Assembly: GCA_947591455.1 (NCBI GenBank)
Contig: CANQDC010000006.1
Span: 1 to 36,528, forward strand
Reading direction: 5' to 3'
DNA length: 36,528 nt
Origin: an uncultured Bacilli bacterium
Lineage (GTDB): Bacteria > Bacillota_I > Bacilli_A > RF39 > UBA660
Made by a program: the position numbers and the translations under genes
Shown here: positions 3,023 through 36,528 of the stretch, piece by piece
Position numbering within the stretch: the first letter of the stretch is position 1
Layout: each line of letters starts with the position of its first letter
Notes under the pieces: generated by a model
The model's input: only the letters and a program-made list of their open reading frames with translations
The model's database searches: none
What the model was told of the DNA's origin: nothing

Positions 3023-3106
3023 CTAGTATCACACTAGTCAACCCCTTTTTATTCTTTTAGAAGCAGTCTTTCAGGGGGCTGCTTCCATTGTGGAATTTAA
3101 AAAGTA

Positions 3107-6100: not shown

Positions 6101-6469
6101 ATCACCAAATATAGATAAAGCATGGGTAGCCACTGTTCTTGATGCAACATGAATTACACCAGGTAACATTTCTCCGGCTATTTTATACATATTGGGAATC
6201 ATTAATAAAAGCCCTTGGCTCGCTGTAAACGTTGTAGCTAAAGAACCAGTTATTAAGGCACCATGCATCGCTCCGGCCGCTCCTGCCTCACTTTGCATTT
6301 CAATTAATTCAACTTGATGATTAAATAAATTTCTTTTCGATGTATGATTAATAAAATCAATATTCGAAGCCATAGGACTTGATGGCGTAATTGGATAAAT
6401 GGCAGCTACTTCACTAAATAGATAGGCCATATCAGAACATATTTTATTCGCATCTGCTACTTGTTTCAT
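3107..6469 (-). CDS. nifJ: pyruvate:ferredoxin (flavodoxin) oxidoreductase
   Basis: 1120 aa; N-terminal 'AYLFSEVAAIYPITPSSPMA', two 4Fe-4S motifs ('CIQCGRCSFVCPHAVIRC', 'CTSCGLCIDTCP'), TPP-binding 'GGDGWAYDIGFGGIDH' and 'NTGGQMSK'. Confidence 0.97.
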   Translation of the reverse strand: MKQVADANKICSDMAYLFSEVAAIYPITPSSPMASNIDFINHTSKRNLFNHQVELIEMQSEAGAAGAMHGALITGSLATTFTASQGLLLMIPNMYKIAGEMLPGVIHVASRTVATHALSIFGDHSDVYSTRETGFCLLASNNIEEVRTNAVVAHLASIEGSLPFLHFFDGFRTSHELNTIEPIEDTEFLKLVNYDKIAEFKKRTLNIDHNIEKGLAENEDIYFQSMEARNSYYEKMPDIVNEIMQKVNKITNTDCKPFNYYGDSNAENIIIAMGSVVDTIKLVVENENKKGHKIGCIAVHLYRPFSVKYLLEVLPKSVKKIAVLDRTKEAGSVGEPLYLDVVAALKNTEIKIVGGRFGLSSKNTTPSDIYSVYKMLENHLQNSFTIGICDDVTNLSLKKEPYELDLNDKEILIYGFGSDGMVSASKDLLKIASQKLEKEVDGYFEYDSKKSGGVTVSNLRIKNKKIYAPFYVTHGDIVVVTKDEYFKKFDIVTKVKPNGILLVNTLNAKTLDMKINETDKKFIVDHHIMVLGIPASTIAEEYGMHGKINKIMEVIILRLLGIKNALELVKETITSQYKTKGNEVIEKNKQAIHKAFSELYQIELSQVSYPKKEATNLFEKINARLGNTIPISEIMPLMDGSFPGGLAKEEKRNIADKVVKWIPENCIQCGRCSFVCPHAVIRCFKTKQSTTKKPFLGDLDYDFYVSISEADCTSCGLCIDTCPGLKGKKALEFGQFDEEKQKISNYYFNEYENSIVKTKNEVKDLSFVKPLFEFSGACAGCGEAAYIRLLSQIVGKKLMIANATGCSSIYGGSAPSTPYSIPWANSLFEDNAEFALGMYLSNKQKREQIENIMKTSLEAVNDEVKEKFQLWLDNKEDFAMTYQIKNDLKDLEIPKDLQNLLDYIPSRSIWAVGGDGWAYDIGFGGIDHILSTNYPVKILVLDTESYSNTGGQMSKASKIGQVAEFADFGKRNYKKDLFRIALSYPNCYVASISLGGNFNQTIQAIKEAEQHNGPALIIAYATCVEHGIKGGLSCSLKQQDLAVRSGYQLLMRYQPNTEQLFLDSKEPDFDVYDEFLQNETRYNALKIKDEKLAKNLLELNKQHAIKRYQFYKEKSTKQNS

Positions 6470-10020: not shown

Positions 10021-11014
10021 TCACTTCCTAGTTAATTTGTTTGTAATTTTGTTTAATATATAAGCCATAATTAATGTTGGTATTATCGATAGACTAAAAT
10101 TTAAATATGGATTATTACTAGGAACAAGTTCATAAATAATTTGTTGAATTAAAAAGCCCCATAAATAAATTTCATAAGAAAGTTTTAATATATTTTCTTT
10201 AGTAAATACTTTCTTACACTCAAATGATAACCAAAGACATAAATATGGTATCGTTATTATTTTAACATATAAAAAAATATTAAGGAATAAACTAATAATA
10301 GTAATTAAAAATAAAATACATGCATATCTATTTTTTAAAGGAATTTTATCAAAATAAATATAAGTAATCATTCCCATATAAAATAGAAAAAATAATGGAA
10401 GAACTGATTCTAATGTAGGAAAATACATATATAATATCTTTTGAAATAATAAACAACCTAAGAAAAGAATAAAAGTATATTTAAAATTTTTTTTATTTAT
10501 AATTTTTATTTTATAAGCTATAAAACAGAAAATATAACATAAAAATTCTACTGGTAGTGTCCATAAAGACCCATTCGTGGATAAAGAATAAATATGATTT
10601 GTCCATAAACCTATTATTTTATGCGTTGTTATTAACAAAGAATTTTTTATTAAATATAGATAGGGAGAAGAATCCATAAAGTATTCTTTTAATGATACAT
10701 TTGTAAATAATGGTCCAACGATAAAAACGGTACATAGAAGAACTAAAAATAAAGATGGGAAAATACGCTTTATTCTTTTCTTAAAAAATGTAAACCCCCC
10801 CCCCTGAGGAGATTAACGACTTAGTTATTAAAAAACCACTAAAAAATAAGAAAATACATACACTTAAATTTCCTAAATCCAGTTGTCCATGAGTAAGTCT
10901 ATTAACAGGATCAAAAAAATTGGGACCATTCGTAATGGGAAAAGCATGCGAAAAAATTACCAAAATTGCTGATACAAATTTTATTAATGAAATATTATTA
11001 TTTTTTGTATTCAT
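10021..11014 (-). pseudogene. acyltransferase-3 family membrane O-acyltransferase, split by a +1 frameshift at a G10 tract (probably phase-variable OFF state)
   Basis: ORFs 10781-11014 (77 aa, 'LIKFVSAILVIFSHAFPI...GFLITKSLISSGGG') and 10021-10677 ('NGSLWTLPVEFLCY...') are the two halves of one acyltransferase-3. Reading through with nine Gs gives SSGGGFTFFKKRIKRIFPSLFLVLLCTVFIVGPLFTNVSLKEYFMDSSPY with no stop; composite 993 nt, 330 aa. Confidence 0.92.
10795..10804 (-). repeat. C10 (G10 on coding strand) homopolymer tract inside the acyltransferase gene
   Basis: gtaaaCCCCCCCCCCtgagga read directly. Confidence 0.98.
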
Positions 11015-34359: not shown

Positions 34360-35256
34360 ATGTTGTATATGAAAAGTAGAGGTGATCATAAATTGAAAGT
34401 AGAAATAAAAAAATTAGAGAATATTAATATGTTAAATGATGCTATGTTTAAAGCCGTGTTTCGAAGTGTAGAAGCCAGAAAAATGGTAGCTACATTTTTA
34501 AGTAGAATCACTGGTATTGAAGAAAGTATTTTAGAAAAAGCTGAGTATCAAGGAGGAGAATTAGTAAAAAATAATATTAAAGAAAAAGGAAAAGTATCTG
34601 ATATCATTGTTAAGATTCAAGATGATAACAAGATCATTTTGGAAATGAATCAATTTGTAAGTAATTATATATTTGAAAAAAATATGAGTTATGCATTTAC
34701 CATGTTTGCAGAGACCATACCTTTAAGAGCGAAAAGATATCCATATGTGTATTTAATAAATTTGGATAATTTTAATAAGTTTAAAACAAAAGAAGGAATA
34801 TTACATTTTAAAATACGAGATGAATATGGTCATATAGAAACAGAACACTATCAATCAATTCACTTAATTCTTGAAAATATAATAGATGAAAAGTATAATG
34901 GGGATAAAGAAATAAAAAAGACAGTTGAGTTTTTAAAGAAGAATAATCTAGAAGAAATGAAGAAAGAATATGGGAGTGATGAGAAATATATGGCAGCAGT
35001 AAGAAGAGTGGAAGATTTATCAACCGATCCAAACTTTATCGGGTATTATGATGAAAAAGAAGCGATACAACAAGATTTAGATGACATGTGGGAGACCGGG
35101 TATGATGAAGGAGAGAAAAAAGGTCTTGAACAAGGAATTAAAACAGAAAAAATAGAAATAGCTAAGAAACTCATAGAAATGGATGGAATTGAAAAAGCAA
35201 GCTTAATTACTGGACTATCTATAGAAGAACTTCAAAAAATAAAAGAAGATAAATAA
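34360..35256 (+). CDS. Rpn family recombination-promoting nuclease / putative PD-(D/E)XK transposase
   Basis: 298 aa; 'MLNDAMFKAVFRSVEARKMVATFLSRITGI', 'GKVSDIIVKIQDDNKIILEMNQFVSNYIFEKNMSYAFTMFA' (D...ExN core). Alternative TTG start at 34393 has a good SD (aggtgat). Confidence 0.9.
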   Translation: MLYMKSRGDHKLKVEIKKLENINMLNDAMFKAVFRSVEARKMVATFLSRITGIEESILEKAEYQGGELVKNNIKEKGKVSDIIVKIQDDNKIILEMNQFVSNYIFEKNMSYAFTMFAETIPLRAKRYPYVYLINLDNFNKFKTKEGILHFKIRDEYGHIETEHYQSIHLILENIIDEKYNGDKEIKKTVEFLKKNNLEEMKKEYGSDEKYMAAVRRVEDLSTDPNFIGYYDEKEAIQQDLDDMWETGYDEGEKKGLEQGIKTEKIEIAKKLIEMDGIEKASLITGLSIEELQKIKEDK

Positions 35257-35450: not shown

Positions 35451-36521
35451 TTAATCAATCAAAAACCGAGGGCGAACGCCAAGTGATTTAGACGCATTGG
35501 TGACATGGGAATCACCGGTGTCCATGGCAGAAGCAAAAGCAGCCGAAAACGATACATCTTTTAACCAATAATGAAATCTAGTAGTTCCGTAACCATTAAT
35601 GAATTCAGGCTTTAGTTGAAAAATCGCATACTGACGATTATCTATTCCTGTATCATACATACTTGATGATGTTACAGTAGTACCATATACATTTACTTCA
35701 CTCATTAAATCTAGTTTTCTACTATACCAATCCCATGCATTACTAGCACCTGATACATTAATATATTTATTTAAAGCTTCTGTATTTACTGACTTACTTA
35801 ATAAATTTCGATATTCTATTATATGTTCTCCAAAAACTGGTTGAATATATGTGTTTAATACATTTGGCAATGTTATTTCAACCATATCACTATTTGCATA
35901 GCCACCTTCTGTTGTATCACTTTCATTCATTGCAGCACTTTCCAATGGGGTTGCAGGTATAATGGTTACATGATGTTTGGTTAATTCTGATCTTCCAGAA
36001 TGTAAATAATTATCTAGATCTGCTATTAACCATTTAATAGATTTCCCATCAATATTTGTTGTTATATAATCTCCTACATAGATATCATCGAATGTTCCAT
36101 CACTAATTTGTTTATAAAACTCATCTGGTTTTGTTTGAAAAAAATTTGTTAAGTCTTTCCCTCGATATGTATTTCTTCTTAATGCGGCTCCGGCATCAAT
36201 ATAGTTTTGATATTCTTCTTTACTTAGATTACTTGCAAAGGCTATATTACATTTACTATCACTCGTTATATTATCTATCTTTAAATTCCAAGCATTATAA
36301 TCCCATTCACCTTCTGTTTCATTATTACATGTTACACTTACTCGATAGTATTTATCATTACTTGCTTTTCTACCTGGTACTTTATCTTCTTTATTTTGAT
36401 CTACTGTAATGGCTACTTTTACATCATAACCAAAATCAGGTATTGTTCCCCTTATTACATTATAGCTTTTGTTCTCCTGGTAACTAGCATAACTTCTATA
36501 AATTATACCCCCCCCCCAGGA
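35451..36521 (-). CDS. C-terminal part of a DUF6273-like protein (N-terminus beyond the window, across a G10 tract)
   Basis: The track ORF begins at an internal TTG (35945), but the frame stays open to 36521 (357 codons). 'WLIADLDNYLHSGRSELTKHHVTIIPATPLESAAMNESDTTEGGYANSDM' and C-terminal 'YWLKDVSFSAAFASAMDTGDSHVTNASKSLGVRPRFLID' match DUF6273-type patterns. Confidence 0.75.
   Translation of the reverse strand, partial: SWGGGIIYRSYASYQENKSYNVIRGTIPDFGYDVKVAITVDQNKEDKVPGRKASNDKYYRVSVTCNNETEGEWDYNAWNLKIDNITSDSKCNIAFASNLSKEEYQNYIDAGAALRRNTYRGKDLTNFFQTKPDEFYKQISDGTFDDIYVGDYITTNIDGKSIKWLIADLDNYLHSGRSELTKHHVTIIPATPLESAAMNESDTTEGGYANSDMVEITLPNVLNTYIQPVFGEHIIEYRNLLSKSVNTEALNKYINVSGASNAWDWYSRKLDLMSEVNVYGTTVTSSSMYDTGIDNRQYAIFQLKPEFINGYGTTRFHYWLKDVSFSAAFASAMDTGDSHVTNASKSLGVRPRFLID
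36508..36517 (-). repeat. C10 (G10 on coding strand) homopolymer tract at the upstream edge of the DUF6273-like ORF
   Basis: aattataCCCCCCCCCCaggatcacact read directly. Confidence 0.98.
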
Positions 36522-36528
36522 TCACACT

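Follow-up and report, generated by a model that had tools for sequence, protein, structure and literature searches.

The gene at the end of the analysed DNA is likely to be phase-varied by a contingency tract of ten guanines located near its start, and its family also appears to include present or former targets of a diversity-generating retroelement (DGR) encoded elsewhere in the same genome. The tract and its reading frames were observed directly; the switching of tract length is inferred, as no reads were available. The stretch analysed, called the window here, is the entire contig C6 (36,528 bases) of a 1.03 Mb genome assembled in 74 contigs and 67% complete. The contig itself ends at 36528, at the onset of a repeated module, and this sets the limit of the window. 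The features at this edge are as follows.

36508-36517, minus strand (ten Cs on the plus strand): G10 tract within the hydrophobic portion of the leader, the presumed frame switch
36518-36528, minus strand: final 11 bases of the leader, in the SVIL frame; the start codon lies past the contig end, as placed from paralogues
35451-36506, minus strand: gene body, 351 codons (35454-36506) plus stop, out of the leader frame at G10; C-terminal part DUF6273/C-lectin-like
36432-36506, minus strand: part of the 5' module downstream of the tract, nearly invariant among own-genome paralogues

The length of the run was confirmed as exactly ten (C on the plus strand, G on the minus strand). The only other C/G run of at least 8 in the window, at 10795-10804, is likewise ten bases long, and six overlapping C/G 8-mers were observed in the window against 0.06 expected from dinucleotide-preserving shuffles. 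A preliminary description, made from the sequence alone, had claimed a ten-G run directly upstream of an open frame of more than 350 codons, one of only two C/G runs of such length in the window, and had given three readings for the frames entering the tract at G10: SVILGGGYNL followed by a stop, CDPGGGV followed by a stop, and the long frame with a TGA at 36522-36524. All of these claims held.

A DNA search of the genome with the last 1.1 kb of the window returned 42 matches. In paralogues that continue past the tract, it is preceded by an SD (GGAGGA) and an ATG that opens a leader of about 26 codons (MKIERYRENKKVRNTLLTLGIASVIL), and the 5' module shared by about 34 paralogues, made up of MKIERYRENKKVRNTLLTLGIASVIL, the tract and IIYRSYASYQENKSYNVIKG, is nearly invariant. 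Following the tract, GGG and then IIYRSYATYQENKSYNVIKG are in frame with the leader only at G9; at G10, the predicted product stops after SVILGGGYNL. Because the paralogues show SVIL as the coding upstream frame, the ON length is G9 (or G12) and not G11. The preliminary description, which had G9 or G11 joining the frames, was therefore right about G9 and wrong about G11, and its unseen "N-terminal half" amounts to only about 26 codons. The CDP frame, which G11 would join, was rejected, as no paralogue has a coding leader in it. A TATAAT just past the tract was considered as the -10 box of the window gene and set aside, given the SD, start and leader upstream and the lack of a TTGACA in the module. 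At G9, the run would encode glycines within a short leader, positively charged and then hydrophobic, that resembles a signal anchor. The earlier claim of probable surface association also holds up, with surface display itself being inferred.

Whole-genome counts gave 37 runs of G10 and one of G9. The shared module accounts for 33 of the G10 runs and for the sole G9; the remaining four G10 runs are on contigs C4 (two) and C5 and at window position 10795. In the G9 copy (C71, L057) leader and body are in frame (ON), and the 33 module copies at G10 are OFF. Thirty module copies had enough context for a survey of their bodies, 22 of them with a complete body, and all 22 are open over 333-394 codons. 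For bodies of the VRPRFLI class the median dN/dS was 0.38, and for the remaining bodies 0.59, both below 1. Identity among copies, measured in 15-base blocks, was 89-99.7% over about 75 bases on either side of the tract and 60-70% in the outer flanks, and this conserved core between divergent flanks suggested homogenising exchange among copies. Per-copy tract lengths were taken from an assembly that breaks at the module, without reads or expression data, and may be collapsed because the copies share an almost identical core. A 298-aa ORF adjoins the window gene (34360-35256, plus strand), with relatives or fragments beside or near copies in L039, L050, L072 and L077; judged by its sequence alone, we take it to be an Rpn/PD-(D/E)XK-type gene.

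A search with the family profile found matches in all 21 sister genomes, up to 51 in each, and rarely outside the genus. Runs of at least 9 were present in 22/22 genomes of the genus, where exact lengths summed to 72 for G9, 386 for G10 and 29 for G11 (79% of G9-G11 runs are exactly G10); in other genera of the taxonomic family, any G10 was found in 16/58. Among paralogues and sister species the tract varies between G8 and G11, with G10 dominant. Tracts were classified from 121 distinct contexts in fetched loci. Coding tracts were ON in 12 cases and OFF in 5 at G9, ON in 4 and OFF in 47 at G10, and OFF in all 9 at G11; for 66 of the 76 coding tracts classified, G9 is the length that reads in frame. 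The binomial p=6e-22 for this bias overstates the case because the loci are a non-random sample and paralogues are not independent. Twenty further tracts lie within -35/-10 promoter-like spacers. The tract of sister species G001 is found 13 codons past the start, within an additional leader (MKKINKNLPTRLT) that is followed by a membrane segment without a tract, which indicates that the switch was acquired at two different positions in this family. The earlier claim of a contingency tract is thus supported by 34 paralogues sharing the tract, with one G9 in frame and every complete body intact, and by genus-wide tract lengths of 8-11, some in promoter spacers.

The other G10 tract of the window splits an unrelated gene in the same manner, an acyltransferase gene of a polysaccharide-type locus, and this counts in favour of phase variation.

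10795-10804, minus strand: G10 tract inside the acyltransferase gene; G9 would be in frame
10021-11014, minus strand: Acyl_transf_3 gene split by the tract; both parts have ordered matches to a single Pfam family

The window protein itself had no match in a Pfam search. A paralogue with 66% identity to it matched PF19789 (DUF6273) at 24.0 bits, against a gathering cut-off of 23.5, and this paralogue match is the support for the earlier assignment as DUF6273-like. No match for the family was obtained in a sequence search against solved structures. A structure model of the window family built from 38 sequences (mean pLDDT 78; an earlier model with pLDDT 48 was discarded) matched predicted viral proteins with E-values as low as 4e-23, several of which are labelled DUF6273 or receptor-binding, and its best match among solved structures, a C-type lectin domain, was not significant (E=0.73, prob 0.33). 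The shared core was not found in IMG/VR. In phages, DUF6273 is reported to be a C-lectin-like DGR target domain (PMC10743442, PMC11792537); a ligand for the present family is inferred only.

A search of the genome for the reverse-transcriptase (RT) family located the DGR on contig C10. This retroelement (RT, Avd and template repeat), which matches variable 3' ends of the family, was absent from the preliminary description. Its RT (L055:1386-2543) matches RVT_1 (54 bits), phrog_1423 (2e-64) and, as best PDB entry, 8ub7 (2e-21), which is labelled in the database only as "Reverse transcriptase" and which we take to be the BPP-1 RT. It carries the motifs IGSQISQ and YMDD, the former fitting the pattern [LIV]GxxxSQ of DGR RTs. 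The 179-aa ORF of the cassette matches phrog_3206, "Avd protein of DGR" (E=1.6e-7), and the template repeat (TR) lies at L055:1167-1248. The cassette target is a family member truncated by the contig start before the tract position, with its variable region (VR) at L055:426-507, and the VR keeps 58/59 non-adenines and 9/23 adenines of the TR.

TR-like 3' ends were identified in 12 more family members, the window gene among them. In four (L047:14647, L044:7385, L050:18680 and L048:1937), the TR is matched at 96/108 codon third positions, compared with 205/320 third positions over the 240 upstream bases set against the cassette target (p=2e-7, an optimistic value because the four members were picked after seeing the data). 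The last three of these are complete G10-tract genes, and adenine-directed rewriting has probably occurred in at least three G10-tract genes; that rewriting of dispersed copies is ongoing is an inference. The corresponding end of the window gene is given below.

35468-35549, minus strand: VR-like 3' end, 82 nt; 48/59 template non-adenines and 10/23 template adenines kept

Its adenine bias is supported (p=2e-4), and its third positions agree no better than the upstream sequence (p=0.44). This end is most readily regarded as VR-like and drifted, with no sign of recent homing or rewriting.

RTs with 67-70% identity to the C10 RT were found in G009, G011 and G021, and adenine-limited TR/VR pairs like that of C10 in G009 and G021. 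The cassette-adjacent targets of G009 and G011 have no poly-G tract. Tandem template-repeat copies occur on the minus strand of L186 (G009:C19) at 3087 and 3367, the second differing mostly at adenines, and this second copy might itself have been rewritten. Another RT of the genome, L079 (C13:20616-21017), is cut by the contig end and was rejected as a DGR; its closest models are retron RT-TIR/RT-Toprim.

In the mechanism we propose, slipped-strand mispairing in DNA replication would alter the run by one or two bases. At G9 (or G12), the 26-residue membrane-anchor leader would be fused to the DUF6273/C-lectin-like body, and G10 or G11 would truncate the product; the modal length, G10, would be OFF, with slippage to G9 turning the gene ON. 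With about 34 genes usually at G10 (OFF), each cell would show only a few family members at a time, and these would change. Members ending in GVRPRFLI would be targets or former targets of the C10 retroelement, which may rewrite template-adenine positions in the variable end and in doing so refresh some members. A bolder reading, for which we find the case nearly as strong as the doubt, is a working two-layer system in which the retroelement rewrites the lectin-like binding face and the default-OFF poly-G tract picks the variants displayed, so that a stored repertoire of dispersed copies would be sampled stochastically. Against the proposed mechanism, 33/34 copies have the same OFF length and, in the absence of reads, no length change was seen at one locus. 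The VR of the window gene, without recent rewriting, and the tract-free cassette-adjacent targets in G009 and G011 also stand against it.

Three rival explanations were considered. Under programmed slippage, the DNA would be fixed at G10; slippage by RNA polymerase, or a +1 frameshift by the ribosome, would yield a small, constant share of full-length product from every copy. The dominance of G10 (79% of G9-G11 runs in the genus and 33/34 family copies) and the maintenance of bodies although OFF favour it. However, tracts in promoter spacers would gain nothing from such a process, G9 and G11 runs do occur, in-frame G9 family members included, and the message would need a -1 nt change (or the ribosome a +1 shift). 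We consider it unlikely. Less likely still is that the module serves mainly as a recombination handle, with most copies acting as silent stores whose bodies gene conversion brings behind an expressed leader. The 89-99.7% identity over about 75 bases flanking the tract, against 60-70% in the outer flanks, and the Rpn-like gene adjoining several copies are in its favour. However, each copy whose upstream side is visible carries an SD, start and leader of its own, none of the copies seen stands out as a single expression site, and G10 tracts with in-frame G9 in unrelated genes are left unexplained; recombination of this kind could nonetheless act in addition to phase variation. Finally, an assembly effect, in which copies truly differ in length and short-read assembly imposed one length on the shared core, is suggested by a core common to 34 copies at which many contigs end and by named sister records being NODE-style assemblies, but is all but ruled out, since four unrelated own-genome tracts are also G10, sister species have the same mode, and only per-copy lengths, not the existence of the tract, could be wrong.

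Phase variation through the tract, our preferred reading, resembles the poly-G/poly-C loci of Campylobacter jejuni, which likewise have many G8-G11 runs with G10 commonest, in surface-related genes; tract lengths in C. jejuni colonies were G8 257, G9 214, G10 431, G11 77 and G12 9 (PMC4965091). Unlike in C. jejuni, the runs here are the hallmark of a single large family of lectin-like paralogues in a genus of Bacilli, G9 is almost always the length that reads in frame, and some members are targets or former targets of a retroelement. Phage DUF6273/C-lectin DGR targets (tentaclins, PMC10743442; Faecalibacterium prophages, PMC11792537) carry the variable region at the C-terminus of the DUF6273 domain, where RT, Avd and TR change it, an arrangement that the present family appears to share. 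The present family differs in being chromosome-scale, with dozens of members that are membrane-anchored and mostly carry the putative frame switch, and no recognisable phage was found around the C10 cassette or within the window. The DGR of Bordetella phage BPP-1 shares a related RT, Avd, TR and a VR at the target 3' end, but has one or few targets as opposed to many dispersed VR-like paralogues. In Mycoplasma vlhA and Neisseria opa, many paralogues are switched by simple repeats and few are expressed at once; the present family would share such switching of many paralogues and differs in repeat unit and protein fold, and neither system is known to include a retroelement.

Hypermutation by retroelements is usually considered separately from phase variation by poly-G tracts, and here both bear on one family; a switch gating DGR targets on one gene was not found in the limited literature searched. 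The pairing hints at a way for a bacterium to hold a large stock of mutated binding proteins while displaying few of them. The findings also single out a genus of uncultured Bacilli that seems to rely heavily on poly-G switching, for which G10 OFF and G9 ON is a testable rule.

Other G runs were observed outside the family. At L070:4905 (C5:40904), L132, L151, L246, L284 and others, G9-G11 lies between TTGACA and TATAAT-like hexamers with spacers of about 17-20 nt, and these runs at unrelated genes may be candidate transcriptional switches. A very long G run in G018 (G018:C10:10508-10555 and similar; about 48 bases by overlapping matches) is probably a sequencing artefact. On the minus strand of L069 (C4:38000-47806), G10 runs at 6196 and 9680 share the context TATAGTT-G10-TCT and precede genes whose products are similar to tail-fibre or collar proteins of phages, and it is conceivable that a prophage uses a similar poly-G switch.
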